Shown here: in pieces, positions 3,416-64,000 of the stretch | How the letters are laid out: every line of letters begins with the position of its first letter | Position numbering within the stretch: position 1 is the first letter of the stretch | The notes under the pieces: generated by a model | What the model was told of the DNA's origin: nothing | The model's database searches: none | The model's input: only the letters and a program-made list of their open reading frames with translations | DNA from: Morchella semilibera | Lineage: Eukaryota > Ascomycota > Pezizomycetes > Pezizales > Morchellaceae | DNA length: 64,000 nucleotides | Direction of reading: 5' to 3' | NCBI GenBank assembly: GCA_009192285.1 | Contig: WBVU01000010.1 | Span: forward strand, 1,920,111-1,984,110 | Program-made: the position numbers and the translations under genes

Positions 3416-5777
3416 CTACATATAACCCCCCACAACCGGCAACTCAGCCATATGGACCTTCGCCGTCCCATACGGCACCAACACGACCGCCCTCCACGCA
3501 CCCACGCACGCCGCACCGACAGGCGGCACCGCCGGCGAGTCCCCCGTCGTGTTCCACGCCACCACGCACCCCCGCGCCAAGACGCTGACGGGCGCCGCCC
3601 CACGCGCAAACACCGGGTCCGGCAGCCCGTCCGTGGCCATGTCCGCCGACGTGTCCACGGCCGTCAGCGTGGCCGGGTCGATGGCGATGCGCCACTCGCT
3701 CAGCGGCGTGAGGACGTGGTCGCGCGTCTCGGGGAGGGTCTGGGCTGTTAGTGGGTGTGTTGCGGGGGGGGGGGAGGGGGGCGGGGTATACCTCTTTGTC
3801 TGGCAGTGGGGTCCGGTCGGTCCAGTTGAGCGGCGGGAAGGACTCCTCGGAGTATTCCAGGTCGAGCGCGTACAGTAGTGGGCCTCTGTAGACTGCGACG
3901 CCGCCCGACGCCCTCGTCACGACCTCGATCCTCATGCCGAGCTTCAGCGTGATTGTTGACCTCCCAGCCCGTACGGAGACCTTCTGCAGCGACGTGTGTG
4001 CGTCGGGGGTCAGCGCCGCCGCCGCCCCGCCGTTGACGGAGATGCTCGATGCGTCGAGGACGGCCCAGGACGGGATGCGCACGAAAAAGTCGAAGCTGGA
4101 CCGCGCGCGGAGGGTGTAGTGCAGCGTGTCGCCGAAGGGGTACAGCGTGTCCACGGTTACGGTGACGGTGTTGCGCCCGGGGAGGGTCGTGGTCACGGTC
4201 GACGGGCTGAGGAGGGCGTGCAGCAGCCCGTTGCCGGCGCGCACGAAGGAGGTCGAGAGGAACTTTGGGTATGCTTGTGGGTGGTTGACCGTGCAGCAGG
4301 GCTGTATGTATATATGTCAGTCAATATATTCCCAAGCAAGACAGGCAGACATACAAAGTTGGGCTCCAGCCCAAACGTGTTCCCGTACGAAACAACATTG
4401 TAGAAGGGCGACCCCTGCGTCAGGTTCCTGGCCCACGGCTGGTTCGTCTGCGTCACGTACTGGTGGCTCCACCAGTCCGGGGCCACGGCGGCCGGGAAGG
4501 CGTTGAAGGCGGCGCGCTCGACGCCGTCGGCGTAGCCGTTGTCGCCCTGCAGCCGGTACAGGTACGAGAGGGAGAACATTGTCTCGACGGACATGCACAG
4601 CTCCGATCTGTTTTGTTAGTTATATATTGAATTCAAAGGTTGTATGAGATGTAGACATACCCCCGCTGCGGCGAGAGGCCGCCGAGATGCTCGTCGGCGA
4701 TGATGGTGCCCGAGCTGGAGCCGTGGTACGTAAACGTCCAATTGACAGCATCGCGTGTCTGCCCCAGCAGCGAATCGTTCCCCGTCATCCGATACAGCAC
4801 CGCCGGATACCTCAACCCCTGCGCCAGATTGACCCCATGCGTGAACCCGCTCGCCCTGACGCCCCCAGTCCCCACAGCCACCCTCGGAAACACCCCGTCG
4901 ACAAAGAAGGCCGTCCAGTCCCTCCCGCCCACCCTGCCGCCCTCAAACATGAGCTCCATGGTCTCCCAGATGAGCTGCTCCCTGCCCTGCGGGTGGTGCT
5001 CATACAGCCACTGCCAGGCCATGACGAGCTCGTGCGTGCGCGACACCCCAAACCGGTACGGGTCGAAGGTGTCGCCGGGACCCGGCAGAAGCCCCGTGTA
5101 GTTGCTGCTCAGCATGTCGTGCGCCAGCGCCGTGAAGCGGTGCATGGCCGCCACGATGCGCGCCGTCTGCGTCGTGTCCGCCTCCGCATATTGCTAGGAG
5201 CATACGTCAGCGATCTGCACGGCAATCATTGACCCCCGGGAGGATAACAAACCACCAGCCCCGCGAGGACCAAAGCCCTCGCCCACAGGCCCCTAGTGCC
5301 CCTCTCAGTCTCGGGCCCAAGCCACCCATCAGCCGCCTGTCCGTCCACCACGACGTCCAAGAACGCGCGCGCCTGCGCCCTCAACTGCACGTCGTCGAGC
5401 GCGAACGCGAGCGGCACGGCGTAGTTGAACCAGTAGGGCGCGGACTCGTGGAGCTCGCTGTACTCGTGCGTGCCGCCGAGCCACGTGCTCCGCGCCACGT
5501 AGCGGTAGAAGGCGCCTTGGTGGCCCGCGAGGGCGTTGGAGGAGCGGTGCAGCTGCGCGCGCAGCCAGCCACGCGGCCGGATCGACGTCAGTGGGAGCGC
5601 TGCGTACAGGAATGGGGATACTGCGCTCTGTGTTAGTTGCAGTGTGGGGTGGGGGAAGGGGGGGGGGGTACGGGTTGGGGTGTTGCTGCTGTTTGATAGT
5701 GCGGCGGCGGCGGCGGCGGCGGAGGGGATGAAGCCCGCGGCGGATATGATTGCTGCGAGGAGCGCGGTGGCGAGCAT
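3416..5777 (-). CDS. secreted GH127/DUF1680-type glycoside hydrolase (beta-L-arabinofuranosidase family)
   Basis: Exons 5777-5672, 5620-5253, 5193-4661, 4607-4355, 4301-3792 and 3739-3416 give 697 residues. The N-terminus MLATALLAAIISAAGFIPSA is a signal peptide, so the product is probably extracellular. The ALPLTSIRPRGWLRAQL block and the helical-barrel region fit the DUF1680 (GH127) family. In the known bacterial enzyme HypBA1 the active site is a zinc bound by Glu-x-Cys plus a Cys-Cys pair; here SELCMSVE and PCCTVNHPQ match both parts, the second appearing only after correct splicing at 4355/4301. The first intron (51 nt, in frame) is optional: reading through it adds 17 residues. Introns 1 and 5 begin with C homopolymers. 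Substrate in fungi is not established; arabinofuranoside hydrolysis is inferred. A hexanucleotide repeat lies just upstream of the start. Confidence 0.88.
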
Positions 5778-54279: not shown

Positions 54280-57200
54280 CTATTCCTCCGCCACATGAAC
54301 GTTTTGTCTGGAGCCTGATAGTACCCGTAAACGTGTACCATCAGGACTAAACATTGAGTCGGGAGTTTCAATGCTAGGGAGTAAAACCTGTAGCAGACAA
54401 ATATACTTAGCAATTACAGAGGTATACTGTGCCGGAGCAGCATAAACTTACTGCTCTATCAACGTCATATGGAAGACCTCTGTGACGACCTCGAATCTAC
54501 CTAGTGTCAACATCAAGTTCATTAGTAATGGTCATCAAAGCTTACCTCCATGGCAATGATCACTAGTTTACTGAAGGGAGTAAAGGTGCCGGAGAGTGAA
54601 CAATTGAGCCCGGGATATCCTAAACTAAGACCAACAGTTCCACTTGGAGGGAGTAAGCAGTTTTCTAGATGAGATGAAGGATGTTGTACTTACTAGGCGC
54701 TGACGACTTCAAAGAACACACTGAAAGCAGTGAATGCCTTTAAAGTTCAGTAAGGAAACTACATGTACTTTGGAACTTGGGATAGATGACATACGTAATC
54801 GTTTGCATCCGCAATACGCCCCCCCTCAGCTACACAGATTAGGAATAGCCCTAGAAATACATACCACAGATCAAATTCGAGCTGTCGTCTGACGTGTGCC
54901 ATAATGTATTTCCCTTCATCTCCATCATTTGATTCTGGTGTACTGTTATCGACATATACCCCTAGTGAATGCTCTTCGTATACATTCGTTCTTCTAATGC
55001 TAATCGCAAGCGGAAGGACGGATATATACATCATTACTGTTTCAAGGGTTAGAAGAGTATTCGTAAAAGACCTTTACTAGAGAGTATATCTACCAAGGTA
55101 ACTGCATTGAATGCCTGGATGTAGTTCTCCTAAAGGAATAGATGCTGTGCCCGAAGTTCGAGTGGAGACCGCTTGGAAGAACGCATTTACTATTCGGAGA
55201 CCAACAGGGAGAGATTTAACGACGGGGGTTTGATACTATATGTGGGAAGTTCCCATCTACCGTTAATCAACCTTGTTTGGGACGGGGGGCAGAAAACAAA
55301 AATCGCACTTACGTCCAGCACAAGAAACAGAACAATATCAGCAAGATTTAGGCCCTAGTGGCTTTAGCTTTGAAGTTTGGACAAGCAGGGCTGAACATAT
55401 GGAGATACGTACTATCAATATCCCAAAGAGCCACCATGTGGGCTAAAGTAAATGAAAATTAGCTTTTAACCTTGAAATAGATGGTGTGGCTCTGAGATAT
55501 ACCCTGCTAGGAAATAACAACGTGAAACATCGGCGAGGGTGGTCAAGGAGGAAATTTAGTTCCTATAATTAATTAACAGCCAATCCAATTATCGATTTTG
55601 TAAGGTTACCTACATCTTTTGTGTCGGTGTACTTTTCTGGGCACAGAACGAATAGAACCCAGATAATAAATCTTAGAAATAGGGGGAATCCGGTATTTCT
55701 GGGGTGGAGATAGTTAGCTGATTTCAGTAGATCTTTTAGGTCTTGTACACGTATTCTCAGTACCCAATCACAATTAAAAGGCCGCAGAAAATTAATATAA
55801 ATGCTGCCTTCTGAAAAGAAATGAAAGAATCCGGTGTAAGGGTAAATCCTGTACCGGTATCAGTATTAGCTAAATGCGGGCTAATGCTAAGCACATATAC
55901 TTACCAACATCGTTAAAACATGTCATAGCACTATAAACTCCCCACCAAACTTTGTTCAATGCAAGGCCCTTGACAAGGTTACCATATTCCTCGTTTCTTA
56001 GAACCCAAGGTACAAGGACTATGATGCCAAGAATATGGAAAACAACATAGTACCCTTGTAGTAGAGATTTTAGTATTAGTTTGCAATTTGTAACAAGGCA
56101 AAAACAACTTATGTCTAAAGCTTACCAATAAGAATCCAGGATAGTGTCTTCAACGACCGGTATTCAATACCCCCAAGTTCATTCCGTTGTTCATCGTTAA
56201 GATCGTAGAACTGCGAGTTTCTACCAATACTCGGAGTATACGAGAGATATGGGGTTTTTATTGGTGATGCGGATCTTGAACGGCCACGGCGAGACCTTGC
56301 CATTGATCTCGAAGTCGAATTTTCGCGGCCCCCAAATCTAGATCTGGAGCGTGGTCTGGATCTTTGACTCTCGATACGAGAAATCCCAAGATCATCCTCT
56401 ACTGTATCAAGTGAACTTCTGTTCGGTACTGCACCCGATTGTGGAGGCTCGAAGTTAATTGGTCTCTCAATATCTACCCAGCGTTTAGCTTGACCTAGAA
56501 AAATGGGAGCAGCGGAATCACGTACCCTTTTTCTCTTCCGCCCCACCTTCTGCACGAGAAGGAGTGGGTACGTCCCATATGATACGGGTTGTTGTTGGCT
56601 CTGTGATACCAGGTCCATCCAAGGCCGCGCTGGTAGTACTAAGGGCAAATAACCAGAGAAAGTTAGACCGGCATAACTGACAGGATACAGTTGAACTAAC
56701 CTGGCAGCCACGGTATTTGATGTCTCGGTCGTTTGAGTCACACTAACTGGCAGAGGGGGAAGGACAGTGCCAATGTCATTAGGGGACCTTATAGGAGCTT
56801 TGCATGAAATGAAAGGCGTCAGATCACACCAGGTTTAAGTTCAGGGTCACAGAATACACACCTCCTCGCTCAACAACGTAATTGTCCCTAACCACTTCCT
56901 TTGAACGTCGTGCTAAGGAGATCGTACGACGAAGCTCTCGGCTCTCCTTAGATGTAGCCTCCAGGACTATTTTGATACTCTAGTTAGTGCACGAGTGACT
57001 TTATGGGCACATCGTTCGAAACAAGGGCTTGTAGTACCAATGTGCTTGAAACGCTTTTCGAACCAATGAATTCTAACAAACACAACAATCGTATGAATAA
57101 AAATCGGGGTTGTTATATATGGTATGATGTATGTTATGATCTGCTGGTATGTATTGGTTTTGTTCAGGTCGATGCTTTATTATTTAAGTCAACTTAGTTC

Positions 57201-57885
57201 TCCAGGAGTGCATTCTAGTATTGCGCAAAGCCCCATGTTCCTCCGGCAAATGAATATGGTGATTTTATGTTTGATGGTATCATTAAGAGCCTCAAGAATG
57301 CAAAAAGGAAAAAGGGCACATATGCAGCTGGCAGCTAATTAGGTAGAGTACCGCATTAATTGAGAAAATTCGTTGCGCTGCAGCAGGGGTCTTCTCTACC
57401 AAATCTTGCATATTGACGTCCAAATCCTGCCTCTGGTTGGCTCATACCCCTGCTGCAGCGCAACGAATTTTCTCAATTAATGCGGTATTGAGATCCACGT
57501 AGGGCATAATGATATATATGAAAGCCGGGGTCCGAAAGGATCACAAATTCTAACTTACGTATTAAGACCAGATTGTGTTGCAGCTCCACTACGGAAGAAG
57601 TGTTAGAATATTTCACAATATGCGGCACCAAGGGGCGGATCCAGCGAATAATGCATGCGTATACTTACGAAGCAAAGAATATCGCATCAACAAATGGTAC
57701 ACCGCCCGGGATATAGATTAAGATAGATCCGATAAGTATACAGAACCCCAAATAATAGTCTAAAATGAGTTAGCGTAGCCCGATACTCCCCAGAAGTTTT
57801 CACAGGCCATACAGTGCATTGCCATAAAGTTAGGGCGTGTCGAGAACAGCCGCTTTATCCTTCTGGTGAGCGACCTGTGCCCCAT
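54280..57885 (-). CDS. TRK1: Trk-type potassium transporter
   Basis: The gene is split into 20 exons, from ATG at 57885 to TAG at 54280, giving about 694 residues. Exons include 57885-57813, 57759-57669, 57588-57559, 57174-57038, 56966-56862, 56494-56126, 56054-55905, 55235-55094, 55036-54795 and 54387-54280; several are 30-60 nt. The four pore-loop units of the Trk/HKT family are present: TQSGLNT (about 60), NDVGFTLTP (about 367), RTSGTASI (about 495) and AYGTVGLSLGYPG (about 611). Also conserved are GNTGFPLFLRFIIWV, LLDHPRRCFTLLFPS, SIRRTNVYEEHSLGVY and IRGRHRGLPYDVDRA. The long cytosolic loop after repeat one is short and Arg/Ser-rich. It should take up potassium at the plasma membrane. 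Exon 7 has two possible ends (56586 or, with a 31-nt intron, 56526); the former is preferred. Intron 3 (57558-57175) contains a MITE. Confidence 0.92.
57349..57487. mobile_element. 139-bp MITE with perfect 42-bp inverted repeats, inside TRK intron 3
   Basis: 57349-57390 and 57446-57487 are perfect inverted copies over 42 bases, counting the flanking TA. Without the TA pair the element runs CCGCATTAATT...AATTAATGCGG, so TA is the likely target duplication (Tc1/mariner/pogo type, inferred). The spacer of 55 bp is non-coding. A truncated relative lies at 30733. It sits 71 bp from the donor and 174 bp from the acceptor of the intron, leaving both splice sites intact. Confidence 0.9.
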
Positions 57886-60136
57886 TTTTTTGTAGATCCC
57901 CTCTTCTCGTGTGTAATTCAATATACTAGGTTGCTTGCGATCAAAAGGTTAAACCGGGTGTACGTCGCAAGTCGAAGTGTAAAGTTCATTGATGGCAACC
58001 TGCTATTTATCTATGTTGAATTGCCTTTAATTATCTTTCTATGTATATCCTCCCCCCACTGATATCCTTAAGTGGCCAAATGATGCTCCAATTCCTTTTT
58101 ATCGAAAATCCCTCACTTATTTGTTCTTAAGGCAATGAAGGCAGTGCAACCACAGTGGCACGGGGTGTCGTGCGGGGTAAAAACTGAAATGCGAGTAGTC
58201 GAACGAAGGCATTTTATGGGTAGATTACAATAATGACATTCAATTGATCATGGGCATAAAAATCAATCAATCAAGGGCTATGTCATCGACAACAACGATC
58301 AACACCACCATCGCGAACACTAGACTCACCCTCATACTACTACTTCTACTACTACATCAGCTTATTTACCACCACTAACGCTTGTAGGAGCTGACGCCCT
58401 AACCAAAGACAAATAGATTATAAAGGTATCTTGTTCGATCTTTTTACTCTTAGACGGAGCAAAGCGCTAGCTAATTCTGAATGTCGTATGATTGGGACGG
58501 CTTTAGTTGCTTAAACTACCTATAGCTTTTAGAATGATATAGATTGTTATCTCCTCGAAATCAAATTGAAACTCCGGTCGGTAGTTCGACGGAGGGCTGG
58601 CCGCGTAGGTCATCTAGGCTTGCAACGTGCATATATGCGTGCCCCTAGGTACGGCTATGGCTGGCTGGCTGATGATTTTCTCCGGTAACTTCCCGAATCT
58701 GAGCGTTTTATTATCGGCATCTACGGTCCTTATGTTTAGCCCGAACATATGTACCGACACATGCGCCACTCAAGAAGCCTAGCTTTATCATGCCAGGTCC
58801 ACCAAAAAAAAAAACGAATTGCTATCTCTTTTGCGCGTACGTACATGTATGTAGTCACGCAACCATTCAGTCGGCACACCCAGCTTTCGAAACAGGTATT
58901 GTGTGACAGGATCGAAATATTGGGTAAGTTGAGATATTGAGATCCGGCATAATGTAGACTTTTGTGGTGATAGGGAGGTGTAGCAACCCAAGTGCTACGT
59001 TAGTACTAACCTCGGATCATGGTGAGACTTGTCCGTTGAAGAATTTTCAGCGTTCGTCCGGTACTCACCTACATGTGCCTAATTTACATGTATTAACTGA
59101 TTGTGAGTCTGAGAAGTTTCGCGCGATAACAATCTTCAGGGGATGAATAGTTAAGAATTGTAATGCCTCTTAGCCCGATCGATCACTTGTGGGTTTTATG
59201 GGGTTGTCCAGTGGTTGATGGAAGAGTAAGCAAATGTCGTTATGATGTTTGTTTACCTGGTACCCAATAGGTAACCCTTGTAGGAACTTGTACTCTATAG
59301 TACGCAAATTTTTTTGTTCCTGAATACATGCAACTCTCGGTAGCATCCCGGGTTTCTCACCCCGAATGCGTGGTAGTCGGGCTCGTCTGTGTTAAGCGAG
59401 ACTTCAAAAGAGGGAAGACGAGGAACTGAAGAGACCTTCTGTATCTTTGGCACCCTTGTTTAAAACCGGTCAACAGTCCGGACTTACCCAGGGATTTGCA
59501 TGTTTTCTACACTTACTAACATGTACTAAGACCCAATAAGAATTGAGTGTCTGATAAAATTCGGCATCTCCCCACGTCCGGGAGCCGATCAATCAATTGA
59601 GACCTGAGATGTTCACTATATCTATTCACATTTTGCCAGCGGCAGGCTTCTTCTGATTTAGGAATTGGGGGCAGTTAAATTTTTTTTCCGTCATCAGTTA
59701 TCCCAGGAAAGGTAAACGATCTTCGTAGGCTTGTAACATTGAGACGCCTGATCGACAAACTCTATCCCTTGGCACCGCTTAAGAAAAAACGTTTTCCTTC
59801 GTGCTGGAACCCTACATTGGTACTTACTTCCGCGGCAGACATATTTTACAAAACTACTCAAGGCAGTACACCGACTGATTCTCTAGAAGGATTCGCAAAG
59901 ATCTCATGGAGATCCGTGCAGGCCTAATCGACAATAAAGTGCTCCCCCACTATTCCTGCCGCTGTTGATTACAATCAAACCCTCAACCAGAAAAAAAGGG
60001 CCCTAAGGGTCCCACTTCCCTGGGAAGCTTCGTCTTCCCCACAACCCCTTTATAAGCCCCGGATGTCCCTTGGATTGGTCTGATTTCCGTGGCTCCTTCT
60101 ATGTTGAGGGTAACACCTCGATCTCACGATATCAAC
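57886..60136. other. intergenic, divergent promoter region
   Basis: Lies between TRK (-) and the rhodopsin-FucP gene (+). No gene seen. TACATGTA octamers are at 58842 and 59085. Near the right end CCCCTTTATAAGCCCC (about 60045) is a good TATA-type promoter, 85 bp before the chosen start codon of the fusion gene. Confidence 0.6.
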
Positions 60137-63002
60137 ATGGCACAAGAACACGATACGTCTGTAGTGGTTACAGTTGTAATGATATGCTTGGGGCTGTCAT
60201 TTGTTGCGGTATTACTTCGACTTATATCTAGAGGGTTAATTTTGAAGAATGTTAAAGCCGACGACTGGCTGATTATGCTTGCTTGGGTATGTGATTATTG
60301 TAAAAGGCGCTCGTGGGAAATAAGACCCTGGAATGTTTCGTGCTAATTTCAAACCATATAGGTTCTATCTTTTGGGGTTGCCTTCTCCATATGTTTAGGT
60401 ACCAAATATGGGCTAGGGCATGATAATATTTCTGAAAAGAACCAAGTACTAGAACGGAAGGTAGGTTATCCTTAAGTTCTAATTTTCATCCCAGTGATTT
60501 AAAAAAGACTCTAAAGATTCGATGGCCGTCTCAATAGACACAATTTGTATACACTTTGCTATATGTAAGTGATCTTATGGAGGCCCTGGTTTCAATTATC
60601 TCTAACAATTATAGCAACCTGCACTGATGGCGACAAAAACCTCGATATTGCTATTCTATCTCAGCATATCTCAAAATTTCAAGGTGGTCCAGTGGGGAAA
60701 CTGGGCAACATTAGTTGTGGTTAATATTGGGGGCCTTGTGATGACGTTCCTAGTTGCTTTCCAATGCAAACCGGTAATCACTGACCTACAAATAAATAAA
60801 CAAAAGCCCTTTAAAACAAAGCTAATCAGTGCTTTAAGCTGTCCGCCACCTTCTTAGCAAATATACCTACAACGGCCAAGTGCATTGAGACATATGCGCT
60901 TATCTATACATCAGCACCCCTTAATGTCATTACCGACCTACTAATATTGATCCTGCCAATGCCGGTACTGACATCACTTCGATTGCCAAAGAAGCAGAAG
61001 GTTATTTTGATTGCGGTATTTGCTGTGGGCGGATTGTGAGTTCCTTGTTAGTTTGTGGCTGAAACTTAGCATCTTATAACTTTTAATGAATATAGGACTT
61101 CAATAGTCGGCATCATCAGGATATATTTCTTTGAGAGGGGGCTAGCAAAAGAGCATATTCATGTCGGGCTAGCAACAGACTCTCACGTCCATTCATGTAA
61201 GGAAGTCCTCCCTGTCATTAGTCTTATAATTATGTTGGGGTTTAACGTCGGGATTAAGGGAATGGCGCGATTTCATTCATGTGGAGTAGCGTTGAGATTA
61301 ATGCTGGTATCATTTGTGCTTCAGTACCAATGATTAAGCCTCTTGTTGCCAAACTATTTCCCAGTTGCATTGGTGTCTCTGGGTCATCCGCTTCCTTCGG
61401 CGACACAATTGACTCAACTTTACACCCCACTAGATTCATAACATTTGAGCCACCAAAGCCTCTTATTGCTCTCACATTCAGGGAGTCTTTAAAACCTCTT
61501 TCCTTGGTCACTGTCTTATTCTTCTTGTGGGGATTTGCATATGGATTTGTCAACACAATAAACCAGCGATTTGAGGATTTATTGAATATATCGGTAGCTA
61601 GATCGCTTGGACTCCATTCTGCATACTTTAGGTGGGTTCTGTTAAAACCCCACTCTTTTTTCGAGTTTCTAACTTTGATAATGCTTGAAGCGGATACTTT
61701 GCCGCTCCGCTCTTGTTTTCAGGGTACCTTTTGAAAACGTACGGGTTTAGGGCCACATTTATTGTTGGGCTTTGTATCAATGGTGCTGGGTGTTTAATAT
61801 TCTGGCCATCTGCTGTATTGAGGAGTTACGCTGGATTCTGTATTTCCATGGTGGTCCTGGGGATAGGCCTCGCAACGTAAGTGACCCACATTAACACAAC
61901 CGGGTGAACTTAGCTAAGGGACGATAAAGGATTGAACTTGCAGCGAACCCATTTATAGTCTTGTGCGGCCCCCAGAAATATTGCGAATCCCGTCTCTGCA
62001 TTTCACAAGGATTTCAAGCGGTTGGGTCTTTAATCGGGCCTATCGTGGCAAGTCAGGTTCTACCTGAGTTGGTAGTAAGTGAAACCTCACTTGGAGGTGT
62101 GCAATGGGTATATCTAGGGATTGCATTTTTCGTCTTTCTGTTAGCGATTGCATTCTACTATTCCAAAATCCCCGAGGTCGAGTATGTTTACTTCATCATC
62201 CCTTTGACCTTGATTTTGCTGGCTGACTACGGGAATTTCCAGAGATACCGACTTCCCCACAAGAACTGAGCGGCATGGTTCTACTTCACTATGGAAGGGC
62301 AAATATGCTATGGGATTTGTATGGAGTATTATAGCCCAGTTCCTATACACTGGCGTTCAAGAGGTCTTTTCTAGGTTTTCTGGTACATATCTTGGCCAAG
62401 GGACCTCGGCGGTTTATAGCTTTTCAACAACAAGCCATGGCCTGTTCGTCGCTGGAAGATTTGTTGCAGGCTTTGCAATGCTTGCCTTACGACAACGTTA
62501 TATTTTGCTTGTTGCTGTAGCGGGTTGTACAGTTAGTACGGCATTTGCTCTTACCACAGAAAGTATGAGCACTGGAAATGTGATGATTCAGCTGATTTGG
62601 TTTTTTGAGGTAAGCTTTGACGTTCCTTCTGGGCGCTCCTTTTGCTGAAATTTGCGCTAGTCATCTATCTTCCCAATTGTTCTTGCTACAGCCATCCGTG
62701 GCCGCGGGAAGCTCACAAAAGATGGTGCGAAATACCAAGTCTCTTCCACTGTCGGGGCCACAATTTTCCCACCACTATATTATTCAATTCATAAAAAAAG
62801 TAACCCTCGGTACGCCATGAGTGTTCCACTCTCGGTTTTTGCTATACTAGCTATATACCCTATGTATCTATGTATCTCGTCAACAGAACGGAAACGGTTA
62901 GATAGATCAGATTGCACGGAAGATGTACCTGAAGATAGCGAGAGGCCTATTGTTCTACAAGACATGAAGCCTGGTAGGCGGGAATATCTTGAGGTGATAT
63001 AA
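60137..63002 (+). CDS. fusion of Pth11-type rhodopsin domain and FucP-type MFS sugar transporter
   Basis: Eleven exons fit: 60137-60286, 60362-60460, 60538-60564, 60615-60773, 60830-61035, 61096-61196, 61259-61631, 61691-61876, 61930-62181, 62243-62609 and 62661-63002, giving 753 residues in one frame. Residues about 8-285 form the seven-helix fungal rhodopsin domain (KADDWLIMLAWV, YQPALMATKTSILLFYL, FQCKP, SAPLNVITDLLILILPMPVL, HSWNGAISFMWSSVEINAGI). After a 35-residue linker, inside the same exon 7, begins an L-fucose-permease-type transporter: FRESLKPLSLVTVLFFLWGF at 322, then GYFAAPLLFSGYLLKTYGFR, IELAANPFIVLCGPQKY, VGSLIGPIVASQVL and TAIRGRGKLTKDGAKYQVSS. All parts look intact. It may be a sugar sensor-transporter, but this is inference. 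An in-frame ATG 12 codons upstream is an alternative start. Confidence 0.85.
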
Positions 63003-63689
63003 CCATAATAGTTTATGCGGTATATATTATGAGTAGAGTGCCATGTGTATATATGCACATTTTAGTGCTTAATAATGAATTAATGGGGTTATAGAACGCT
63101 GCATAAAAAATAACGGGTTCAAGGTTAATTTGTCAGCTCCCAGACTTATTTATTACTGATCCAACTTATATGCAGGCGGATTAGGTGTTCGAAGCAGGCG
63201 CGTGTTAGGTGTACTACTTTCCCTACACCGAGTACTGTACTCAAGCGTAAACACGGCTTTAACTACCTTTTTGAATGTTAGTCGGGCTTGGAGTCCAATA
63301 CAATTAAAAATGGCTGCCTTGATCCTTTTCGGGATGGTTAATACCGGGACATATGTCCGCAGTTCCCCACGAATATATGTGCCTGATCTCACAGAACCAA
63401 GGCTTTTGGCGATGCCAGGCCCTGGTTAAGTAGGCACAGTAACCCCGGAAAATCATTAGGCTTTACGAAGGTGACGGGAAATCAAGAGCACCGTCATAAA
63501 TCCGGTTGACCGAATCTGTGGATAAACGTTTTTTTCTGCCCTAGGCTGAATATAAACCCTGCGCCTTTGATTACAAAACACAGAACTCCCGTATTCCAAG
63601 ACTTATATAAAGGGGGGGGGGGGGTGCAAGAAGGTAATTCCAGTTTCTCTGGTCACCAAACTCTCTAGAGAAAACCTAATTATATCGAG
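63003..63689. other. intergenic
   Basis: No gene seen. The right end has a TATATAAAG box near 63603 followed by a G homopolymer (63612-63624), about 80 bp before the esterase start. A 75-codon frame at 63202-63429 has no domain match. Confidence 0.6.
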
Positions 63690-64000
63690 ATGCTCGTGCA
63701 AATTCCTGTCCTTTCGACACTTCTTCTGTCGTTATCCGTCTATGCTAGCCCATTGGGCATAGATGAAGGAGCTGTATTCTCTAGAGATTCAGTTTCATCG
63801 TGGGGGGAATTCAAGAATTTGGTTGTTTTTGGTGACAGGTAGTTTCCTTTGGGTGTAAGTCTAAGTATTGATATTCTAATAACAAACCATTAGCTACACG
63901 GACGAAGGTCGGCTGGGTTATTTCTTCAGTCATAATGGATCAGCGCCACCTGTAGGATATATTCAACAGGAAGTCAGTATTTTCTTCTCTGTTCAGCAGT
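63690..64000 (+). CDS. secreted GDSL/SGNH esterase, 5' part only
   Basis: Exon 1 is 63690-63838; a GTAGTT donor and an ATTAG acceptor at 63893 join it to exon 2, which runs to the window edge (a possible donor, GTCAGT, lies near 63973). The N-terminus MLVQIPVLSTLLLSLSVYAS is a signal peptide. Splicing forms NLVVFGDSYTDEGRLGYFF, which is block I of the GDSL/SGNH hydrolases with the catalytic Ser in GDSY, followed by SHNGSAPPVGY. Fungal proteins with this start are usually secreted acetyl esterases or lipases (CE16-like); the remaining catalytic His and Asp would lie beyond the window, so completeness cannot be judged. Confidence 0.85.

Follow-up and report, generated by a model that had tools for sequence, protein, structure and literature searches.

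A Pth11-type receptor joined to a FucP-type transporter domain in two paralogous loci of Morchella semilibera, a candidate one-chain sugar sensor

The genome of Morchella semilibera encodes a membrane protein in which a Pth11-type seven-helix receptor continues into a FucP-type twelve-helix transporter domain. Its gene, FUS1, lies in a 64-kb window (C9:1920111-1984110, the whole stretch of DNA that was analyzed) of an assembly of 56.76 Mb in 23 contigs, and it is almost certainly a real fusion gene that is translated as one chain. A diverged second fusion, FUS2, is encoded on contig C1. In both, the aspartate that corresponds to the putative proton-binding residue of Escherichia coli FucP has been replaced, which suggests that the whole chain may work as a sugar sensor.

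FUS1 is a single gene on the plus strand. Its ATG is at window position 60137, its stop codon ends at 63002, and its 11 exons are separated by GT-AG introns. The exons were placed by hand from homology, and a motif-based splice scan served as a guide only. An earlier note on this DNA, made from the letters alone, had proposed an 11-exon fusion gene at 60137-63002, and this is confirmed at the DNA level: both domains are found by Pfam and the frame is open through the join. The note's count of 754 codons was not borne out. The present model has 751 codons including the stop, giving a product of 750 residues, and an in-frame ATG upstream at ~60101 (ORF 60056-60346) could add 12 residues. The features of the gene, in window coordinates, are as follows.

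60137..63002, + strand: FUS1, whole fusion gene, 11 exons and 750 residues (gene model and Pfam)
60137..60286, + strand: exon 1, 150 nt, receptor TM1 and the start of TM2; intron position and phase common to FUS2
60362..60460, + strand: exon 2, 99 nt (gene model; FUS1/FUS2 intron comparison)
60538..60564, + strand: exon 3, a 27-nt mini-exon; FUS2 has a 27-nt exon in the equivalent place
60615..60773, + strand: exon 4, 159 nt (gene model; FUS1/FUS2 intron comparison)
60839..61035, + strand: exon 5, 197 nt (gene model; FUS1/FUS2 intron comparison)
61096..61196, + strand: exon 6, 101 nt (gene model)
61259..61631, + strand: exon 7, 373 nt, an open frame running from receptor TM7 across the linker into transporter TM1; the residue aligned with FucP D46 is Asn
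61691..61876, + strand: exon 8, 186 nt (gene model; FUS1/FUS2 intron comparison)
61930..62181, + strand: exon 9, 252 nt, encoding the conserved Glu that matches FucP E135 and the Cys that stands in place of N156
62243..62609, + strand: exon 10, 367 nt (gene model)
62661..63002, + strand: exon 11, 342 nt, the final transporter helices, a C-terminal tail of 41 residues and the stop

PF20684 (Fung_rhodopsin, Pth11 type) and MFS_1 (PF07690) are the only Pfam domains in FUS1. The former covers residues 27-275 (E=1.2e-56; profile positions 1-236 of 237; 192.3 bits against a cut-off of 27) and the latter residues 330-648 (E=5.1e-12; 45.8 bits against a cut-off of 33.4). The second half of the protein aligns with E. 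coli FucP (3o7q) over chain residues 23-432 of 438 (E=2.3e-28). FUS1 also matches the NCBIfam fucP and gluP models, below their cut-offs. Against the TIGR00885 equivalog cut-off of 280.4 bits, FUS1 scores 134.2, FUS2 117.7 and the stand-alone relative on contig C14 246, all of them below it.

The join between the two halves was said in the earlier note to fall inside one uninterrupted exon, and it does. Exon 7 reads without a stop codon through its 373 nt, from receptor TM7 over the linker to transporter TM1. Methionine is absent between residue 269, within receptor TM7, and residue 422, near transporter TM4; a separate transporter therefore cannot start in the FUS1 linker. Seven receptor helices fit the hydropathy profile and the hand-assigned helices, and the N-terminus would lie outside. 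A seven-helix domain with an outside N-terminus ends in the cytosol, and MFS domains begin in the cytosol, so the order of receptor then transporter is topologically sensible. The hand-set loops of FUS1 fit a cytosolic join loosely. A 7+12 layout is in keeping with the earlier estimate of about 19 membrane helices.

When the genome was searched with each half of FUS1 separately, one locus on contig C1 was matched by both. This locus, FUS2, lies on the minus strand (C1:955776-952727) and has 12 exons encoding 806 residues. PF20684 is found at residues 30-271 (E=3.8e-62; 210.4 bits, cut-off 27), and MFS_1 at residues 372-717 falls under its cut-off (E=7.3e-7; 28.8 bits against 33.4). The domain order is that of FUS1, and the join is likewise within a single exon, here of 508 nt; unlike FUS1, FUS2 has a methionine in the linker (residue 328). 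The two proteins are 39% identical overall; by segment, identities number 128 of 268 aligned residues (receptor half), 8 of 34 (linker) and 144 of 397 (transporter half). Three exon-level matches of the FUS1 receptor half to FUS2 show 53-58% identity; against the other listed loci the identity is at most 47%, mostly 24-38%. Eight introns occupy the identical alignment column and phase in the two genes, and one more pair has equal phase but is 11 columns apart in a gapped loop. One intron is private to FUS1 and two are private to FUS2.

The relationship of the transporter halves was examined in a 48-row tree that included 43 bacterial loci drawn from a set of 80, together with E. coli FucP, the stand-alone loci on C14 and C6, FUS1 and FUS2. 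The two fused halves group together with support of 100/99. Since they do so and since introns are common to both genes, the data point to a single fusion event followed by duplication into FUS1 and FUS2. Branch lengths are 1.64 and 3.92 for the fused halves versus 0.55 and 0.37 for the stand-alone rows. The tree program flags FUS1 and FUS2 as long branches, and the position of C14 next to them is uncertain (91/33). The long branches look as if the fused halves had been freed from the constraint of transport, but could also mean relaxed constraint. Between FUS1 and FUS2, differences at codon positions 1, 2 and 3 are 0.46, 0.24 and 0.64 in the receptor half and 0.50, 0.38 and 0.67 in the transporter half. 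Such a pattern fits purifying selection acting on each half, judged from a comparison of positions rather than a formal test.

With the transporter half of FUS1 as query, all 12 candidates were scored and four loci were found: C9/C10 (two identical contigs, counted as a single locus), C1, C6 and C14. The stand-alone C14 protein as query (14 of 14 candidates scored) returned the identical four, and two of the four, C9/C10 and C1, are fused. PF20684 has 60 exon-level matches in the genome, contig duplicates included. A wider MFS_1 scan scored 9 of 213 candidates, and Pth11 fusions with other MFS families may exist in this genome. The C10 copy of FUS1 is 100% identical to that on C9 over the 7869 bp compared and was for that reason rejected as independent support for the fusion. 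PF20684 matches stand at nearly equal coordinates in the C9/C10 pair and in the C12/C13 pair; duplicate haplotypes or contigs inflate the assembly here. At the stand-alone C6 locus (L048, ~4100-4640), the reading frame shifts near the seventh helix, possibly because of a pseudogene, an assembly error or an odd intron, and C6 was therefore compared over its N-terminal part only. In viral contigs, 136 stretches matched a search pattern and none encodes a relative of the fusion.

The earlier note had held the key motifs of both halves to be intact. For the transporter half this fails. In the numbering of E. coli FucP, the D46 site is Asn in FUS1 and Gly in FUS2, and it is Asp in the C14 protein and in the N-terminal part of C6. 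The bacterial control consisted of the best 80 of 260 confirmed relatives, many of them closely related rows, and the two peptide patterns used to find these relatives cover neither D46 nor N156. Of those 80, 71 have Asp at D46 and nine have Pro. The N156 site is Cys in both fusions and Asn in C14, C6 and all 80 bacterial rows. E135, N139, R154 and Q159 are kept in FUS1, FUS2, C14, C6 and 80/80 bacterial rows. At N162, the 80 bacterial rows have Asn and all four fungal rows, fused or stand-alone, have Gln. The nine relatives with Pro at D46 (L082, L083, L089, L090, L092, L112, L116, L124 and L128) are labeled as Bacteroidota or Flavobacteriales, Chitinophagia and the like, and are perhaps a subfamily with other coupling.

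Asp46 has been described as the putative H+-binding residue of FucP (PMC4882079, in the section available). The FucP D46N mutant is reported to be transport-deficient, with H+ translocation inactivated and L-fucose-specific charge displacement retained (PMC8784342, likewise in part). Judged by its residue at this site, FUS1 is a natural equivalent of FucP D46N, and FUS2, with Gly, is not.

These observations suggest a mechanism in which a single membrane protein would begin with a Pth11-type seven-helix receptor, its N-terminus outside and its C-terminus in the cytosol, and be connected by a linker to a FucP-type domain of twelve helices. Because the proton-coupling residue is missing, the latter would most likely bind a hexose or 6-deoxyhexose and shift its conformation with no active uptake. 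The conformational change would be relayed via the linker to the seven-helix domain, which may in turn act on a signaling partner; a G protein and the cAMP-PKA pathway are plausible candidates. The protein would operate like Snf3 or Rgt2, transceptors that do not transport, with the receptor domain as a built-in output. From the sequence, we infer the lack of active transport, the binding of sugar, the ligand, sensing, the direction of coupling and the signaling or G-protein output. Taken whole, a sugar-binding domain without active transport that is covalently coupled to a Pth11-type output has a nearly even chance of being right. The earlier idea of a sugar transceptor is plausible, but the sequence favors a sensor without proton-driven uptake, the Asp being missing in both fusions and kept in both stand-alone loci. 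Several points speak against the mechanism. Nine of the 80 bacterial relatives carry Pro at D46, so the Asp is not strictly conserved among relatives and its loss need not abolish transport; FUS2 carries Gly, whereas the FucP mutant studied is Asn; and C6, one of only two stand-alone controls, may be a pseudogene. It is possible, though on balance doubtful, that these proteins form a natural family of one-chain receptor-transporter sensors. In that scenario, loss of the proton-coupling acid would have turned a FucP-type carrier into a pure switch for sugar binding, a Pth11-type receptor would have been attached as its readout, and duplication would then have given the two paralogs that are kept.

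Alternatively, the twelve-helix half might still move sugar, by uniport, by exchange or by coupling to a different ion, under the control of a seven-helix half that senses something else. The retained E135, N139, R154 and Q159 and the helix motifs are in keeping with this, and since the nine relatives with Pro at D46 may still be transporters, loss of D46 alone is no proof of lost transport. However, N156, an Asn in every bacterial row and at both stand-alone loci, is Cys in both fusions, and the fused halves sit on long branches, which makes a receptor-regulated transporter fairly unlikely. The transporter half could also serve as a structural or trafficking partner, or bind a ligand other than sugar, with the receptor half working as usual. 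Such a role would suit the changed substrate residues and the better conservation of the receptor half between the paralogs, but it sits poorly with the retention of E135 and Q159 and with second codon positions in the transporter half that differ far less than third positions (0.38 vs 0.67), and it is unlikely.

Finally, the fusion could be an artefact or accident: two genes misjoined, read-through, or a decaying fusion with no function. The identical C10 copy is uninformative on this point, and the linker methionine of FUS2 leaves some room for it. Against it stand the continuous frame through the join, the FUS1 linker without Met, a diverged second locus with an equal fusion and introns common to both, and the excess of third-position over second-position differences in both halves. 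Because a second, paralogous fusion exists, an accident of annotation is very unlikely, and this whole class of explanations is highly improbable.

Snf3 and Rgt2 of yeast signal through long C-terminal tails. This feature is absent from the fusions; with hand-set helix ends the tail of FUS1 is 41 residues, and that of FUS2 is short by eye. In oomycete GPCR-bigrams, a seven-helix receptor is fused to a second, cytosolic domain. The fusions resemble them in combining a seven-helix receptor with a second domain, and differ in that this domain is a transporter and not cytosolic. Snf3/Rgt2 and Neurospora CLP1 are discussed, in part of PMC5890159, as transporter-like proteins thought to sense without transporting. 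They are a precedent for the idea of a transporter-like sensor and not for the fusion; they are homologs of hexose or cellodextrin transporters, whereas the fusions have a FucP-family fold and, as their proposed output, an attached seven-helix domain.

Pth11-related receptors have been found only in Pezizomycotina, and ordinary members end in a cytosolic tail, some with an N-terminal CFEM domain (PMC12842992, in the portion available). Both fusions hold a full-length PF20684 far above the cut-off but continue into a twelve-helix transporter. Their transporter halves are homologous over nearly the whole length to the FucP/FHS L-fucose:H+ symporters and the GluP glucose/galactose transporters (TIGR00885, TIGR01272) and keep E135 and Q159, yet they fall far short of the cut-offs for these families (for TIGR00885, 134 and 118 bits where 280 are required), lack D46 and N156 and carry a receptor in front. 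A further precedent for the idea, again not for the fusion, comes from Neurospora: excerpts of PMC12892961 report that mutants in G proteins and adenylyl cyclase misregulate Pth11-class genes on cellulose, and its authors speculate that cellobiose or glucose transceptors may be under the control of G-alpha proteins.

The earlier note knew of no described example. No Pth11-transporter fusion or sensor is named in the titles or abstract openings of the open-access full-text matches listed, and no paper was found in open-access full text with Pth11, FucP and fungi together. PMC13116585, the only paper among the matches listed with both Pfam numbers, was rejected as a precedent: in the part available, it places PF20684 and MFS_1 on different genes. 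The available parts of three papers on fungal GPCRs (PMC12842992, PMC13308352 and PMC4683645) mention no receptor-transporter fusion. Each half is known, and as far as the open-access literature was seen, the combination with the lost coupling acid is new; such an architecture may already be on record elsewhere.

Of the fungal GPCRs, the majority are orphans (PMC13308352, in part), and it has been proposed that transporters which lost transport mark a stage on the way from transporter to receptor (PMC5890159, in part). With a receptor and a transporter that lacks its coupling acid in the same protein, kept as two diverged paralogs, either question would become open to experiment: FucP and GluP sugars would be the place to look for the ligand of one Pth11-type receptor, and the coupling of a transporter-like sensor to a seven-helix output could be measured in one protein. 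If the proposal is true, one branch of Pth11-class receptors would gain a directly assayable ligand domain.

No tandem repeats were found at the default score within window positions 55000-64000. Upstream of FUS1, an ORF at 52709-53425 matches BTB/POZ weakly, at 17.4 bits against a cut-off of 20.5. On the 3' side of FUS1, ~690 bp away, begins a GDSL-type esterase gene whose product looks secreted; it extends past the window (63690-64000; L130:1227-2195); its exon just beyond the window, the only one scanned, matches PF00657 with E=6.2e-6. Upstream of FUS2, the first recognized gene, divergent and ~6.4 kb away, encodes a galactose-1-phosphate uridylyltransferase (PF02744, E=3.3e-51; L132:6202-7395, ~C1:962.2-963.4 kb), and nothing recognizable by eye was seen among ORFs of at least 75 aa between the two. 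The uridylyltransferase is a weak hint of a sugar role for the fusion, and both it and the esterase may be neighbors by coincidence. An L-ornithine/lysine N-monooxygenase gene (PF13434, E=7.1e-84; L131:2537-3598) lies ~6 kb past the 3' end of FUS2 on C1, adjoined by an EXPERA-domain ORF (PF05241).
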